Of a stretch of DNA of 64,000 nucleotides, positions 1,187 to 9,291 are shown one piece after another. Where the stretch lies: the NCBI RefSeq assembly GCF_001723305.1, contig NZ_LPWF01000029.1:62001-126000 (forward strand), read 5' to 3'. Both the position numbers and the translations under genes were made by a program. This DNA comes from Methyloceanibacter superfactus (GTDB taxonomy: Bacteria > Pseudomonadota > Alphaproteobacteria > Rhizobiales > Methyloligellaceae). The number at the start of each line of letters is the position of its first letter. Within the stretch, counting starts at the first letter, position 1. The notes under the pieces were generated by a model. The model had not been told where the DNA came from and made no database searches. It saw only the letters and a program-made list of their open reading frames with translations.

Positions 1187-2527
1187 ATGAGGGTATGGGG
1201 AAAACTGGCAATCGCCATCGCGGTTGCCTGTCTCGTTGCGGGCGGGACGGTACCTACCTTCGCTGCGGAGGCCGGCCTGGAGTCACGCCGCGAGACCTTG
1301 TTGCGGGAAATGCTCGCGCGCCCCAACGACCTCGACCTCGCTTTTGAATATGCCAAGCTCTCCTCGGATGCCGGCGACTACGAAGGCGCCATCTCCACCA
1401 TGGAGCGCATGCTGATCTACGCGCCCAATACACCGCGCATTCAGCTCGAGCTTGGCATCCTCTATTACCGCCTCGGCGCCTATGACGTGGCGCGCAGCTA
1501 TTTCGAGCAGGTCTACGCCAATCCGAACGTGCCGCGCGACATCGCCGACCAAGTGCGTCTCTATATCCAGCAGCTTTCGATCGCCGCCGACCCGCCCGCC
1601 TTCTCCGCGTCGATCTTCAGCGCCATCCGCTACGAGACCAACGCCACGGCCGGTCCCGGCACCAACAGCGTCACGCTGAACGGCATCGACTTCACCCTCG
1701 ACGATCAGGCGGTGGGCAAGCCCGGCTGGAGCGCGCTGAATATCGGCACCCTGCACTACTCCTACGATTTGAAGAAGCAGGGCGACCGTATCGAGTTCGA
1801 CTTCCTCGCTTATTCGACGGCCTATTTCGACAACGACCTGTCGGACATCGATCTCGACTTCTTCGAGGTCACGCTCGGCCCCTCGTTCAACCTGAAGCGC
1901 TGGGGCATGAATTCGAGCCGGCTGTATGTCTACGCGATCGGCGATCTCGCCTATCTCGGCTACGACAACTATTTTCACGCGCCCGGCGCCGGTATCCGCT
2001 TCCTGAGCTTCGCCGCCGAGCGCAGCGTGCTCGATGCACGAATCGAGACCCGCATTCGCGAGTTCAACGACTCGAGCGAGCTGCCCACCAACTCGTTGCG
2101 CGACGGCCCCCAGACCCGGGTCGGCGCCACCTATTCCTATTACTTCACGCCCGGCTTCGTCGGCACCGTTCAAGGCTATGCCCAGCGCGAAGATGTCGAG
2201 GCGGACTTCTATTCCGATTGGGAAGTGGCCTTCTCCGGCGGCTTCGCCTGGACCTTCGCCAACCCGCTGTGGCAGGGCAAATATCCTTGGACCTGGCAGC
2301 TTGGCGGCGGAATGATTCGCCGGGACTACGACGATCCCGACCCGACCATCGACATCACCCAGGCCGAGCAGGACGATATTTGGTGGACCCGCACGGCCCT
2401 AGTGCTGCCGGTGGCCGAAACCTGGGCCCTGGTCCCACAGGTTGAATATCGCGATCAGAGTTCTAACTATGATATAAGGACGTTTGACAATCTGACCACT
2501 CTTCTCGGGGTGCAGAAGAGGTTCTGA
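1187..2527 (+). CDS. TPR plus outer-membrane beta-barrel protein, Slam / type XI secretion-like
   Basis: The protein has 446 residues. A signal peptide (about 1-27, cleaved near TFA/AEAG) precedes a helical TPR region at about 35-150 (FEYAKLSSDAGDYEGAIS, then LGILYYRLGAYDVARSYFEQ). About 290 residues follow of alternating aromatic/polar strands ending in a terminal Phe, the standard outer-membrane barrel ending. A periplasmic TPR domain followed by a C-terminal barrel is the layout of Slam (DUF560), the type XI secretion translocon, and the length is close to known Slams. The next gene starts four bases downstream and encodes a plausible cargo, which strengthens the call. Family membership is inferred from architecture and strand pattern; another TPR-barrel family is possible. 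Confidence 0.65.
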   Translation: MRVWGKLAIAIAVACLVAGGTVPTFAAEAGLESRRETLLREMLARPNDLDLAFEYAKLSSDAGDYEGAISTMERMLIYAPNTPRIQLELGILYYRLGAYDVARSYFEQVYANPNVPRDIADQVRLYIQQLSIAADPPAFSASIFSAIRYETNATAGPGTNSVTLNGIDFTLDDQAVGKPGWSALNIGTLHYSYDLKKQGDRIEFDFLAYSTAYFDNDLSDIDLDFFEVTLGPSFNLKRWGMNSSRLYVYAIGDLAYLGYDNYFHAPGAGIRFLSFAAERSVLDARIETRIREFNDSSELPTNSLRDGPQTRVGATYSYYFTPGFVGTVQGYAQREDVEADFYSDWEVAFSGGFAWTFANPLWQGKYPWTWQLGGGMIRRDYDDPDPTIDITQAEQDDIWWTRTALVLPVAETWALVPQVEYRDQSSNYDIRTFDNLTTLLGVQKRF

Positions 2528-2530
2528 GGG

Positions 2531-4331
2531 ATGACGGCAACATACTCGTCTGCTGACGTGGCCGGCTCGCGCGGGACGCGCACGGCTGCCCTTATGCTTG
2601 GCCTGGTTGTCGGGCTCACCGCCGGCCTTGGCGCGGCCGTCGGCCCGGCCCAAGCCGAGAAGGTTGGCGTCGCCGCGGCCGTCAATCCGGACGCCTTCTC
2701 CAGCCTGAGCGGCACGCCCAACAAGCAGCTCAGCATCGGCAAGAACATCTTCTACAGCGAGCGCATCAACACCACGGCGAGCGGCCTGGTGCAGGTGCTG
2801 CTGCTCGACGGCTCGACCTTCACGGTCGGCCCGAACTCCGATCTCGTCATCGACAAATTCGTCTACGACCCGAAGAAGAAGACCGGCGAGATGATCGCCA
2901 CCTTCTCCAAGGGCACCATGCGCTTCATCGGCGGCAAGCTCTCCAAGAACGAGGGCGGCGTCACGGTGAAGACGCCGTCGGGCGCGCTCGCCATCCGCGG
3001 CGGCATGTTCCAAGGCAGCACCTCGCGCGGGATCTACTCCTTCCTGTACGGCCACTCGCTCACCTTCAGCGGCCGTAACGGACAGTCCCAAACCATCTTC
3101 CAGCCCGGCTATTCGTTCGACTTCTCAGGGCACGGCTCCAATATCCGGCCGACAACCCGCGCCGATATCAATGCCATTCTTGTCGCCTTGACCAATAAGA
3201 ATACGAACTGGCAGGTCGGTGGAAATGATACGGCTCGCGCTGCAAGCGCGACCCCTGACGCGACTAATTTTTTCAGCGAGGGCGAGCCTGATGAGATTAT
3301 CAGCACTGCCACTGCGACGCGTCTGCAGGACGATATTCTAAATACGTTGGGCAAGCTCAAGACGGCGTCTACGCAGACCCCCACGGGCAACACTACGTCG
3401 CCCAATGGTGGAACGCCTGGAGGCGGGACACCTGGCGGCGAAGAAGAGCCGCCGGTTAGAACCTTTAACGGTTACGCTGCAGGATTCCGTTTGAATGGTT
3501 CTCGGGAACCAAGCTTGGTAGCGAATCTTTCGCCACAAGATTTTCAGCTAGCCCTGCCTCCGGATAGTCCCGACGGTGTCACCGCTGGCCTCAAAGTCAA
3601 GGAGTTTGACCCGACAAGTTTTCTCAAACTCCTTGCTGGTGGATTAGTATCGACGAGTTATGACATGAGCTTTGGCGGAGCGACTACGTCAATGACTATT
3701 CATTCTCCGCACCTAGCAACCCAGAAGCCGGTGTCGCAACACGGATCCTGGTTTGGGATATTACAACGACGGGTTCCGCTCAAGGCGCGATAGCAAGTGA
3801 CGTTTCCCCGGATGGGCTTTGCGAGTCGTGCGACTTCATCAAATGGGGCGCTTGGGCCAATACAATTAATTACAAATATGGGCCTTTTAAATTCACCGAT
3901 GCGCTGAATGGTTGGTGGGTCGCGGGCGACATCTCCTCTGATGACGATCTTTCACCTCTCCAGGGGGAAGCTACTTATCAGGGCCATGCGGTTGGTAATG
4001 TCGCCAACAAAATTGGGCGGCGAGAGTGGGAAAGATATGTCGCGACCGGCGACATGAATATGACCTGGAACTTCGGTACCCGGGACGGTCGGATTGACAT
4101 TACGAATTTCGACAATCGGAGTTTCGGGGGCCCGCTGTGCGGTGCAAATGTGTTGTGCAGCAATAACCAATTCGCTGGACCACTCTCCGGCGCGGGCGAC
4201 TTGAAGGGCGCCGCTATTGGTTCCTTCGTAAACAATGGTCCGGAAAAAGCTGCCGGGGTCATCGGCAACTTTGGTGTTGGAAACAACAACTGGAAGGCTA
4301 ACGGCATCTTCGGCGGAGCCGTGTGCCATAA
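2531..4331 (+). CDS. secreted FecR-domain protein with C-terminal TbpB-like barrel (frameshifted as read)
   Basis: A Sec signal peptide (cleaved after GPAQA, no lipobox Cys) leads into a FecR domain at about 45-200 with the hallmark DGSTFTVGPNSDLVIDKFVY and KTPSGALAIRGG. A Pro/Gly linker (GGTPGGGTPGGEEEPP) follows, then a C-terminal region. As read, the frame closes at 3793, but coding continues in another frame from about 3680 with barrel-like strands (GWWVAGDISSDDD, WNFGTRDGRIDITNF, GVGNNNWKANGIFGG). One missing G near 3679 joins the two. A second missing base near 4314 would give the natural ending GGSRVP and stop at 4331; without it the frame runs to 4404. Repeated short strands ending in GIFGG resemble the TbpB-type barrel of Slam cargo. 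The 3' half is AT-richer than its neighbours. The native ligand is unknown. Confidence 0.65.
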
Positions 4332-4469
4332 ACGTGCCGAGCAATCGGCCTTTTTACCTACCTACCCCTTGACCAGCCTCAAGGTCATTCCCTCGCAATC
4401 CTGAACAGTGATAGCCATCTCGCGCCTGCTCTCTTCGGGCGCCGTTTCCGCACGCTTAGGAGACTCCCC

Positions 4470-5250
4470 ATGCGCGCCACACCTCTTGCTTCTCTGGCGT
4501 TCGCCGCCGGCCTCGCCCTTCTCGTCCCCGGCATGGCCCTCGCCGAGCCCACCGAGATAACGATCCGTGTACTGAGCAAGGACGGCAAGTTCGTCGGCAC
4601 CAGCATGGGCGGCGCCCGCGTATTTTGCGCGACGCCGACACCGGAGAGATTCTAGCGCAAGGCGTCACGGCCGGCGGCACCGGCGACACCGCGCGCATCA
4701 TGCATGAAGACGGCGGCCGCCGTGCCACGCTCTCCGACGACAGCGCCGCCAAGTTCACCGCCACGCTCAATCTCGATGAGCCCCGATTGCTCGAGGCGGA
4801 GGTCATTGGGCCGCTCGCACAGCGCCAGAGCGCGGGCCGCGCCACCGCCACCCATTGGGTCGTGCCGGGCAAGAACATCACCGGCGGCGACGGCTGGGTC
4901 CTGGAGCTGCCTGGCTTCGTGGTCGACGTGCTGGCGCCGCCGGCCCATGTGAAGCTGCCGCCGGATACGAACACAGTGGCCGTGCGCGCCAACGTGGCGC
5001 TGATGTGCGGCTGCCCCATCGAGCCCGGCAAGCTGTGGGATGCCGACGCGCTGGAGGTCGGGGCGATTGTCATCCGCAATGGGAAGCGCTGCCCCCCCGT
5101 GGCGCTCAAATATGCCGGCGAAACCAGTCAGTTCTCGGGCAACATTTCCGTCTTCGGCGCAGGCTCTACGACGTCACGGTCTATGCTTATAACCCGGCCA
5201 ACGGCAATACCGGCGTGGACCGGACGACTTTCATTGTGGCAGAAAAATGA
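4470..5250 (+). CDS. secreted protein of unknown function between two FecR genes (two frameshifts)
   Basis: I do not recognise the family. The start at 4470 follows a Shine-Dalgarno-like AGGAGA and encodes a clear signal peptide ending in PGMALA. As read, the frame is lost at the run TTTT near 4626 and again at GGCTC near 5163; restoring one T and one C gives a continuous 260-residue protein. The mature part is beta-rich and Ig-like in feel, contains a CGC pair plus one more Cys (ALMCGCPIEPG, GKRCPP), and ends with VTVYAYNPANGNTG just before the stop. Its position between two FecR-domain genes suggests it belongs to the same envelope cassette, perhaps as a partner or second exported substrate; that is inference only. 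Confidence 0.55.
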
Positions 5251-5301
5251 ACGAGGAATCAGATACTTAAAGCGTAGGTTTGGGGGTTGCCCGCCCCCTT
5301 G

Positions 5302-5340
5302 CCCGTCCCCATATAGCCCTGGTCACGATTGGACGGGGAC
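5302..5340 (+). promoter_or_regulatory. possible hairpin masking the ribosome binding site of the second FecR gene
   Basis: CCCGTCC (5302-5308) can pair with GGACGGG (5331-5337), or GTCCCC (5305-5310) with GGGGAC (5335-5340). The right arm is the purine-rich block immediately before the ATG at 5343, so the fold would hide the ribosome binding site. In GC-rich DNA such short complementarity can be chance. Confidence 0.25.
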
Positions 5341-5342
5341 CC

Positions 5343-6315
5343 ATGCAAACATCAGTGATCCTGCCGACGTCGGCCGCTTTCGCGGCGCTCCTATTTTCGA
5401 GCCTTGCCGCCGAGCCGAGCCAGGCCGGAGAGAAGATCGGCGTCGCCGCCGCGGTCACCCCGCAAGCCACCAGCCAGCCGCCGGGCGGCGCGAGCAAAAC
5501 CCTCAAGATCGGCAAGTCCGTCGTCTACAACGAGCGCATCGCCACTTCTGCCAACGGCGTGGTGCAAGTGCTGCTGCTCGACGGCTCGACCTTCACGGTC
5601 GGCCCGGGCTCGGATCTCGTGATCGACAAATTCGTCTATAACCCCAGCACCGGAACGGGCGAGTTGGCCGCCAGCTTCTCGAAGGGCGCGCTGCGCTTTG
5701 TCGGCGGCAAGCTGTCCAAGAACGAGCCCGGCGTGAAGGTGAAGACTCCCGCCGGCACGCTGACCGTGCGCGGCGGCATCTTCCAAGGCATCGTGCGCAG
5801 TTCCAATCAGGCCGTGTTCGCGTTCGTGTTCGGCCACCATCTGTCGCTCAACCGCCATGGCCGCCGCTATACGCTCAACCAGTCCGGCAATCTCTTCGCC
5901 ATCGGCAATGCCGCGCGCCGATCATGCGGCCGACCAACGCCGCCGACACCAATCTCATTCTCGCCGCCGTCTCCGGGCGCAGCTTCGGCACGAAGCTCTA
6001 TCGGGTCAAAGGCACTGGCTGGCCGTTCTATTACGGCATCCAGCCCACCGGCCGGTACCCCGACGAGCCTTTCATCAAGGAGCTCTATTACGACGGGCCG
6101 TTCACGGGGCGTCTGACGCGCGTGCCGGTGCCGACGGTTCCGAATAATATCCCCCACGTCACGCCGCACACGCCGCCGCCGCCCATCACCAACCCGCTGC
6201 CCCCGGTCACGCATACTCCGAACATCACCGCGCTGCCCGAACTGCTAGCGAGGTCAGCCTCTCGGCCTCCGGCGTTCTCGAGCCCTTGCACCGCGGCCTC
6301 ATCGTTCCCAGATAA
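5343..6315 (+). CDS. second FecR-domain secreted protein (two frameshifts)
   Basis: This is a paralogue of the protein encoded at 2531. After a signal peptide ending in PSQA, the mature protein begins EKIGVAAAV (EKVGVAAAV in the first). The FecR core is nearly identical (LLLDGSTFTVGP, SDLVIDKFVYNP, GGKLSKNEPGVKVKTPAG). Restoring one base near 5915 and one C at GCGAGG (about 6248) gives 324 residues ending in RGLIVPR, stop at 6315. The C-terminal half differs: no linker and barrel, but a Pro-rich stretch (TPHTPPPPITNPLPP) and a short tail. It may lack the export handle, or be a structural partner of the first. The start at 5343 is preceded by GGACGGGGACCC. Confidence 0.6.
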
Positions 6316-6435
6316 TGGGACCGCGCGGCCCAGCCGGTCGTCGGGCCTGCCACTTGACCTGCCTCATTCTCTAAGGCTTTTGCTTGACGTTAACATCGGT
6401 CGGGCAAAGCGGACGGGAGACCACAGCGAGGCGCC

Positions 6436-6832
6436 ATGCGTGACCCAAAACATCTGATGTTCGCGGAGGCCTGCGCCCTCATCAAGCAGGCCGAGCAGCT
6501 TCACCGCCAGTTCTTCGAGCCGTCCCGCGAGGCGCGCGCACGGCCCGCTGGGAGCCGCCTGTCGATGTCTTCGAGACCGAGCGGGAGTTGACGATCATCA
6601 CGGCGCTTCCCGGTGTCGCACCCGAGGATGTCCGCGCCGAGATTGAAGGCCAGACCCTGATCATCACCGGCACGCGGCCCCTGCCGACCGCCGGGCGCCG
6701 CGCCAATATCGTGCGGCTCGAGATTCCCTACGGCCATTTCGAGCGGCGAATCTCACTGTCGCGCCGTCATCGAGCTGCGCCCGCGAACTGAAGAATGGTT
6801 GCCTGGTGCTCACCTTCACTAAGGCTGGCTAA
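6436..6832 (+). CDS. Hsp20/alpha-crystallin small heat-shock protein (two frameshifts)
   Basis: The restored 132-residue product has the Hsp20 layout: N-terminal MRDPKHLMFAEACALIKQAE, then WEPPVDVFETERELTIITALPGV and IEGQTLIITGTRPLP as the alpha-crystallin core, then RLEIPYGHFERRISL, and a closing LKNGCLVLTFTKAG. As read, the frame breaks at a CCC run near 6546 and again near 6778; one base added at each restores it. Hsp20 proteins hold unfolding proteins in a soluble state without ATP. The lon protease gene begins 22 bases downstream, so holdase and protease are probably cotranscribed as a protein-quality unit. Confidence 0.75.
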
Positions 6833-6854
6833 CCTTAAGACAGAAGTCCGGACC

Positions 6855-9291
<2,437 letters not shown>

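Follow-up and report, generated by a model that had tools for sequence, protein, structure and literature searches.

A probable export pair of a Slam-like outer-membrane protein and a FecR-barrel cargo in Methyloceanibacter superfactus and related Alphaproteobacteria

We have analysed a stretch of 64,000 nucleotides of contig NZ_LPWF01000029.1 of Methyloceanibacter superfactus (hereafter the window), and describe a row of forward-strand genes that begins at position 1187. The host genome is alphaproteobacterial, with 3.1 Mb in 38 contigs, and the genus is placed in Hyphomicrobiales. The first two genes encode an outer-membrane protein (OMP) that resembles the Slam (DUF560) exporters of type XI secretion systems (T11SS), and a secreted cargo with an N-terminal FecR domain and a C-terminal barrel of the TbpB/fHbp type. 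To judge from sequence comparison and structure modelling, the two very probably form an export pair. On balance we favour a divergent type XI pair in which a periplasmic FecR domain holds the cargo. Computation gives the export pair good support; the FecR anchor, and a relay to cyclic AMP (cAMP) that is discussed below, are put forward as hypotheses.

The OMP gene (1187..2527, +) is an open frame of 446 amino acids (aa) with a signal peptide (all signal peptides were called by inspection), TPRs at about 1367-1522 and a barrel at about 1595-2524. The N-terminal TPR domain is identified by a TPR_19 match of 40.1 bits, and the C-terminal part matches the Pfam model SlipAM weakly. The assignment to the Slam type draws on Pfam, on a barrel-only hhalign comparison and on a tree. 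When the barrels of 33 FecR-associated OMPs were compared with those of 14 canonical Slams (over 390 aa), hhalign gave 99.8%, E 7.9e-29 and a score of 203 across 281 of 310 columns. The nine rows of the window's OMP family alone still gave 98.0% and E 1.8e-13. The control barrel, BBP2_2 (11 rows), reached 93.0% and a score of 58 against the 33 rows, and 5.9% against the nine. Porin_2 had been dropped as a control for having too few matches, and BBP2_2 was taken instead. In a quick tree of these 47 OMPs a single branch (SH-aLRT 100) splits the canonical Slams from the FecR-associated OMPs, and barrel cargo needs three changes within the latter side. The SlipAM cut-off is exceeded by three of the 11 OMPs scanned singly, namely L035 from another genus of the same family (22.8 bits), L038 (22.5 bits) and the canonical L040 (67.5 bits), and 11 of 13 OMPs match at E<=1. 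The more specific TPR_Slam model has no match in the window and matches two of 13 members at E<=1. On this profile evidence the barrel of the window OMP is homologous to Slam/DUF560 barrels.

The cargo gene starts at 2531, three bases past the OMP stop. Its closest guide is the 607-aa cargo of Methyloceanibacter marginalis R-67177, the named relative from the genome scan, whose OMP is 81% identical over the best segment. Aligned to it, the window copy runs in frame 2 for residues 1-367 (2531..3676, +) and in frame 1 for residues 373-607 (3682..4332, +, the open frame extending to 4404), with a single frame change near 3.68 kb (3677..3681, +) where relatives have intact copies. The first frame holds a Sec-type signal peptide (cleavage AQA/EK by inspection, no lipobox) and directly after it the FecR domain PF04773 (2762..3016, +; residues 78-162), with 32.3 bits at a cut-off of 24. 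These are followed by a linker rich in Pro, Gly and Thr and by the start of a pre-barrel region. The second frame holds the barrel, with a sub-cut-off Pfam match at about 3955-4317.

A sequence-only reading of the same stretch had already proposed this arrangement: a signal-peptide protein with TPR and an outer-membrane barrel, a cargo with FecR domain, Pro/Gly linker and barrel-like C-terminus, a suspected frame change between the halves, then a further secreted protein and a second FecR paralogue. All of these were found. Its spacing of four bases between the first two genes is corrected here to a start three bases after the stop. Its two family assignments, a Slam-like exporter and a TbpB-type cargo barrel, are borne out by the family profiles of both proteins and by the model of a relative's barrel domain, and neither of the two outcomes that it had named as refuting was obtained, while the window sequences themselves stay under the Pfam cut-offs for SlipAM, TbpB_B_D and FHBP_C.

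The barrel assignment comes from profiles and from a model. Among 18 C-terminal domains, collected as profile A1, ten match FHBP_C and five TbpB_B_D at E<=1, with a best E of 5.4e-5 (FHBP_C). Compared with the PDB at E<=10, this genus-level profile finds 21 distinct sequences, best E 0.0061, and all 21 are fHbp, NHBA (GNA2132) or TbpB, counting 1ys5, 3kvd and 2kc0, which are labelled only 'lipoprotein' and which we take to be fHbp. A wider profile of 24 domains reaches E 2.1e-4; the first 22 of its 28 matches are fHbp, NHBA, TbpB or LbpB, and unrelated proteins appear from E 2.2. We modelled the M. marginalis barrel domain, which is 54% identical to that of the window, with AlphaFold2 (AF2), giving the window domain as the sole second row. 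The model has eight strands (pTM 0.69, pLDDT 60.4). Its Foldseek list is headed by TbpB (E 0.016) and also contains fHbp, lectins, OmpA, OmpX and Ail. When the 50 rows of this list were aligned with VIA-align, the first 27 places went to Slam cargo alone (Z 7.9-9.5). Ranks 1-26 (Z 8.2-9.5) are occupied by fHbp, NHBA and a single chain, read as TbpB, from a TbpA-TbpB complex, and rank 27 by HphA at 7.9. A Z near 8 may reflect a common arrangement, so we rely on sequence profile and fold pointing the same way. By way of the profile and the relative's moderate-confidence model, the cargo C-terminus is predicted to be an eight-stranded barrel of the TbpB/fHbp type.

The entry of the barrel domain is marked by a CxxC motif (3820..3831, +; LCESCDFIKWG), both cysteines of which are conserved in every one of the 18 A1 sequences. 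Of 46 full cargos, 36 have a CxxC or CxC-x-F-L-x-W-G motif at the start of the barrel domain. The cargos of two second cassette copies, L065 and L066 (genomes G092 and G266), lack a CxxC motif; both copies follow a gene that, in L065, carries a Crp-like helix-turn-helix and TPR.

The two genes keep company widely. The profiles used (A1-A3) were built from OMP neighbours and searched genome-wide; A2 includes the canonical Slam L040 of genome G051, itself one of the 50 OMPs counted below. In a set of 61 genomes the OMP was found in 21 at E<=0.001, its own included, nine of them from the 16 others of the genus, where several genomes without a match are incomplete. A FecR protein comes next after the OMP in all nine other genus loci, and in eight of them a window-like C-terminus lies in the same frame as FecR (L034 has two frames). 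Six of these loci have two barrel cargos, in five cases followed by a FecR-only paralogue. Such a paralogue occurs in six of the nine, one of the remaining three being a 4.5-kb contig.

Across 297 genomes of the order, the cargo-barrel profile gave 38 matches in 30 genomes, each with an OMP-profile match on its own strand no more than 4.3 kb away, a count that includes two weak matches before canonical Slams (26.6 bits in G199, 21.9 bits in G115). At 150 bits or more there are 50 OMP matches in 47 genomes. A FecR start lies at most 300 bp downstream on the same strand in 44 of the 50 and 4.3-4.5 kb upstream in three. The profile finds no FecR in the last three: one is a canonical Slam, and the other two have a cargo whose N-terminus is FecR-like but divergent (18.0 and 19.6 bits with Pfam, cut-off 24). 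A barrel domain is present within 6 kb of 30 OMPs, in 28 genomes. Seen from the other partner, at least 82 of 104 FecR matches of 100 bits or more have an OMP-profile match within 6 kb, a lower bound in which many weak partners are TPR-only stretches and some lie on the other strand. FecR pairs with the same OMP clade even where any barrel is missing, and a search for a hidden barrel in 12 FecR-only partners, with filters off, found none (best -0.1 bits). Divergent pairs of a TPR protein and FecR, often on opposite strands, also occur beyond the studied clade (G065:C34:58610-61983, G046:C3, G041:C6, G157:C1 and others).

Of 240 genomes of the class, the own included, 24 have a match to the wider barrel profile and 58 one to the OMP profile (E<=1e-10). 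There were 29 match places, one of them the window's own, and 20 were fetched. Sixteen have FecR and barrel in one frame, two are cut by contig ends, one has two lipoproteins without FecR and one another N-terminus. An OMP match stands alongside 11 of the 16 FecR-barrel cargos in the stretch fetched.

From the computed homologies, the eight strands of the relative's domain, the gene pairing and the N-terminal position of FecR we infer export, its direction and the anchoring by FecR. The cargo would cross the inner membrane by Sec, with a signal of the signal peptidase I (SPI) type and no lipid. Its C-terminal TbpB-type barrel would be the handle recognised by the TPR-barrel OMP, and the middle and C-terminal parts would end up at the surface. 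The FecR domain, at the N-terminus and ahead of the long Pro/Gly-rich linker, would most likely fold in the periplasm and hold the exported protein at the OMP. FecR would then take the role that an N-terminal lipid has in classical Slam surface lipoproteins and a retention module has in LapA-type adhesins.

Several features of the cargos bear on such an anchor. In the 44 cargos measured the stretch from FecR to barrel is 112-649 residues long, and the 100 residues after FecR contain 11% Pro and 11% Gly. These belong to 46 full cargos that were picked as such, the class-level ones for having FecR, and the presence of FecR in 44 of the 46 is therefore not a frequency. A lipobox pattern was flagged in two of 47 cargos, neither of which is a lipobox by eye. 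Compared with the PDB, the FecR profile has 5ix9 as its sole match at E<=5 (E 1.1e-4); a wider profile reaches 2.7e-8, with the next match at E 0.24, and the window domain alone only 0.07. The PDB label of 5ix9 is 'Antifreeze protein', and we take it to be the N-terminal, membrane-anchoring part of the giant Marinomonas primoryensis adhesin. PMC13090378 states that the first account of a membrane-anchoring domain came from a Marinomonas primoryensis adhesin, and that retention modules remain in the periplasm and anchor adhesins of type I (T1SS) and type Vb (T5bSS) secretion. Together with the homology to 5ix9 this suggests, from sequence, that FecR may be a periplasmic anchor and not a ligand domain, an assignment that we hold with slightly less than even confidence.

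The likeness to LapA-type adhesins and to the type Vb adhesin of P. aeruginosa lies in the N-terminal periplasmic beta domain. All 17 FecR members match the NCBIfam LapA retention model NF033682 at E<=0.1 (best E 4.7e-6). The exporter differs, however, and 44 of 46 cargos here lack a LapG-type site near the linker. A LapG-type release is rejected: the site is mostly absent, and the Peptidase_C93 gene is uninformative, since 56 of 61 genomes have it whether or not they carry the OMP. In genome G044 (L038, 8693-13846 as oriented) the frame after the FecR partner encodes an RTX repeat protein with 17 HemolysinCabind stretches, which recalls adhesins with retention modules.

A number of results weigh against an export pair with a FecR anchor. 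In the window, SlipAM scores 15.7 bits (cut-off 22), TbpB_B_D 13.8 bits (cut-off 26) and FHBP_C 14.2 bits (cut-off 28.1), and at E<=0.1 SlipAM has no match in two of ten relatives' OMPs. BBP2_2 is about as close to canonical Slam barrels (89.1%, score 52) as it is to the FecR-associated OMPs. Foldseek returned no match at E<=0.001 for the M. marginalis barrel model; in VIA-align the lower rows include OmpX, Ail and PloI4, OmpX at 7.9 being level with the last-ranked cargo. An AF2 model of the full-length cargo (three rows, pLDDT 33) was unusable, and its eight strands at 458-590 are only noted. No barrel domain lies within 6 kb of 20 of the 50 OMPs, and five of the 16 class-level cargos, two of them at contig ends, have no OMP in the stretch fetched, which indicates that such a cargo can stand alone. 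(L107, L111 and L115, with no OMP match in the 7.5-8 kb fetched and not at a contig end, are orphans or have a distant exporter.) As for the anchor, the window scores 15.8 bits against NF033682 (cut-off 50), a LapG-type [TAP]AAG site is found near the linker in two of 46 cargos, and FecR domains occur in other periplasmic proteins too, so that homology to 5ix9 is no proof of anchoring. Since no part of the window reaches the cut-off of SlipAM, TbpB_B_D or FHBP_C, the pair is, by its sequence scores, a divergent branch.

This branch shares with the described type XI systems (DUF560, SlipAM PF04575, with TbpB, fHbp, NHBA or haemophilin as cargo) a homologous TPR-barrel OMP and an adjacent cargo with a TbpB/fHbp-type barrel. 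It differs in its scores below the Pfam cut-offs, its separate OMP clade, its cargo without lipobox and the FecR domain at the cargo N-terminus. About ten T11SS cargo architectures are described in the accessible sections of PMC12282271, none of them with FecR, and a text search found the word 'FecR' neither there nor in PMC8406197. Soluble SPI cargo is known for TXISS-1B (PMC8406197). The marine cluster 3 T11SS of Rhodobacteraceae and Roseobacteraceae are also alphaproteobacterial DUF560 systems with rare TbpBBD cargo; their described partners are DUF1194, glyoxalase, thymidylate synthase and lipoprotein cargo of the signal peptidase II (SPII) type (PMC12282271), whereas those of the window branch are FecR and, in relatives, often CHASE2. 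Among the matches listed we found no paper describing the pairing of this OMP with a FecR-barrel cargo, in a search that left subscription papers and preprints mostly outside, nor one that joins 'FecR domain' with retention terms. An Acinetobacter genome report contains both 'FecR domain' and 'transferrin-binding protein-like'.

The first alternative places a signalling output at the centre. In such a relay the OMP would display a surface sensor whose state the periplasmic FecR would hand on to CHASE2 in an inner-membrane adenylate cyclase, just as FecR acts for FecA; export would be the means and cAMP the output, which is compatible with the FecR anchor. Of the 50 OMPs, 22 have a CHASE2 gene no more than 10 kb away, where about 0.35 would be expected for genomes of about 4.3 Mb, a size that we set ourselves. 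The distance is 174-395 bp for 16 of the 22, and nine have a barrel cargo and 13 do not. The count uses 76 of 79 CHASE2 matches, with three split-gene fragments left out, and genomes G008 and G016 were outside the CHASE2 search. All six CHASE2 neighbours scanned by Pfam, one of them from Paracoccus, carry CHASE2 and a cyclase domain, and with phmmer a protein like one CHASE2 cyclase was found in 11 of 36 loci. OMP, FecR-barrel cargo and annotated cyclase stand in one three-gene row on Paracoccus aminophilus pAMI5 and on Shinella sp. H4-D48 p1. In Ensifer sp. PDNC004 a cyclase is accompanied by a TPR protein of 104 aa and a FecR protein of 220 aa; Azospirillum thermophilum has the OMP and FecR without a barrel. 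The count of nearby CHASE2 genes suggests surface-to-cAMP signalling in many relatives, but not beside the window locus: no CHASE2 gene was found within 10 kb of the OMP in the window genome or in seven other genus genomes searched, and the one CHASE2 gene of the window genome is on another contig. On the Shinella and Ensifer plasmids (L086, L084) the FecR/cyclase row adjoins NHLP-type bacteriocin export genes.

There are precedents for parts of such a relay. In S. meliloti CHASE2 cyclases signal with the outer-membrane barrel protein NsrA, and a FecR gene, smc02177, is next to cyaD1 (SMc02176) as judged by gene number (PMC13001267, PMC5498481). NsrA, CyaD1-CyaD2-CyaK and SMc02177 bring CHASE2 cyclase, outer-membrane barrel and FecR protein into one pathway or neighbourhood. 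NsrA, however, is a much longer protein to which no homology of the window OMP was found, and is a precedent in kind and not in family; that it might be the same OMP is unsupported, as its barrel is given at residues 600-1200 (PMC7529298), unlike that of the window OMP, and tblastn of one OMP returned one plasmid record, from Azospirillum, and none from Sinorhizobium. In addition, smc02177 is reported as dispensable for plant-signal perception (PMC5498481). In Burkholderia the BiofilmReg operon encodes a LysM-FecR protein beside a CHASE2 histidine kinase, so that the association of FecR with CHASE2 is as such already known; that system has a histidine kinase and response regulator and no cyclase, and no Slam-like OMP or barrel cargo is described in the sections accessible (PMC5192318). 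For CHASE2 in general, PMC5192318 stated in 2016 that the signals were unknown. The term 'outer membrane' is absent from the text of PMC5192318. FecA-FecR siderophore signalling is similar in placing a periplasmic PF04773 domain next to an outer-membrane protein, but in the window branch FecR is predicted to be the N-terminus of an exported or tethered protein. Adjacency is not interaction, and we regard the relay as possible but on the doubtful side.

The sequence-only reading had taken FecR to be the ligand-binding half of the cargo. As a rival explanation this would make FecR the exposed effector domain of a T11SS cargo, with secretion or surface binding by another route. In its favour, described T11SS cargo has an N-terminal effector domain and a barrel as putative targeting domain (PMC12282271), and FecR members match the NCBIfam models Lsa33 (17 of 17), LipL45 (11) and Lsa19 (7) at E<=0.1, two of which are named adhesins. 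The window, however, is far below the cut-offs of those models that it matches. FecR sits directly after the signal peptide, accompanies the OMP clade almost always, barrel or no barrel, and has 5ix9 as its PDB relative; no convincing lipobox would otherwise hold the cargos, and the variable stretch of 112-649 residues between FecR and barrel is a better effector candidate. We therefore do not retain this part of the reading and consider an effector role of FecR unlikely.

It is improbable that the locus has decayed in this strain, with real frame changes and no functional cargo made. Cargo, further secreted protein and FecR paralogue are indeed all frame-broken relative to their homologues (window 2531-9252), but the adjoining hsp20-like and lon genes are broken as well, which makes indel errors in the contig the likelier cause, and in eight of the nine other loci of the genus one or more cargos keep to one frame. 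That the OMP belongs to another TPR-barrel porin-like family, next to a barrel protein by coincidence, is very hard to credit: it does fall below the SlipAM cut-off and the clade barrels also align to BBP2_2 at 93%, but the near full-length Slam alignment scores 203 against 58 in the same hhalign test, and a pairing with a TbpB/fHbp-like domain in 38 of 38 cases would otherwise be difficult to account for.

Returning to the divergent type XI pair with a FecR anchor, its consequences reach beyond the window. Pfam SlipAM exceeds its cut-off in 18 of the 297 genomes of the order, and only two of these, G018 and G051 (the canonical Slam), are among the 47 OMP genomes, so a DUF560-based census would miss most of the branch, along with FecR-barrel cargos that lack a lipobox. 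With the pairing one can test how a T11SS cargo without lipid is kept at the surface, and CHASE2 acquires a candidate partner in the outer membrane. A bolder conjecture, which we consider unlikely as a whole, is a class-wide alphaproteobacterial type XI branch whose cargo remains threaded through its own exporter with FecR as a plug that holds it in the periplasm, one molecule spanning the outer membrane and reporting surface contact to a CHASE2 adenylate cyclase. If true, N-terminal retention would extend beyond T1SS and T5bSS to a third secretion route, and CHASE2 would gain an outer-membrane partner.

Two neighbouring genes follow, which may or may not belong to the export unit. The first (4471..5250, +) encodes a secreted protein whose window copy is split among three frames and which has no Pfam match above cut-off as tested in the relative L031. 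The second (5343 to about 6139, +) is the FecR-only paralogue without barrel, with a frame change near 5.91 kb and unbroken frames of 310-355 aa in L027, L028 and L030. Promoter and terminator scans were uninformative (two promoters against 1.3 expected, nine terminators against 5.1). The FecR-only proteins of L041, L028, L030, L027 and L076 end with two close cysteines (e.g. CANC, CPNC or CQPYCN), mostly past a Pro- or Gly-rich tail. In genomes of one family (f41) a 5'-nucleotidase/metallophosphatase gene lies near the OMP in L063 (4242-5960), L076, L069 and L072, and in L063 and L076 stands between an upstream FecR gene and the OMP.

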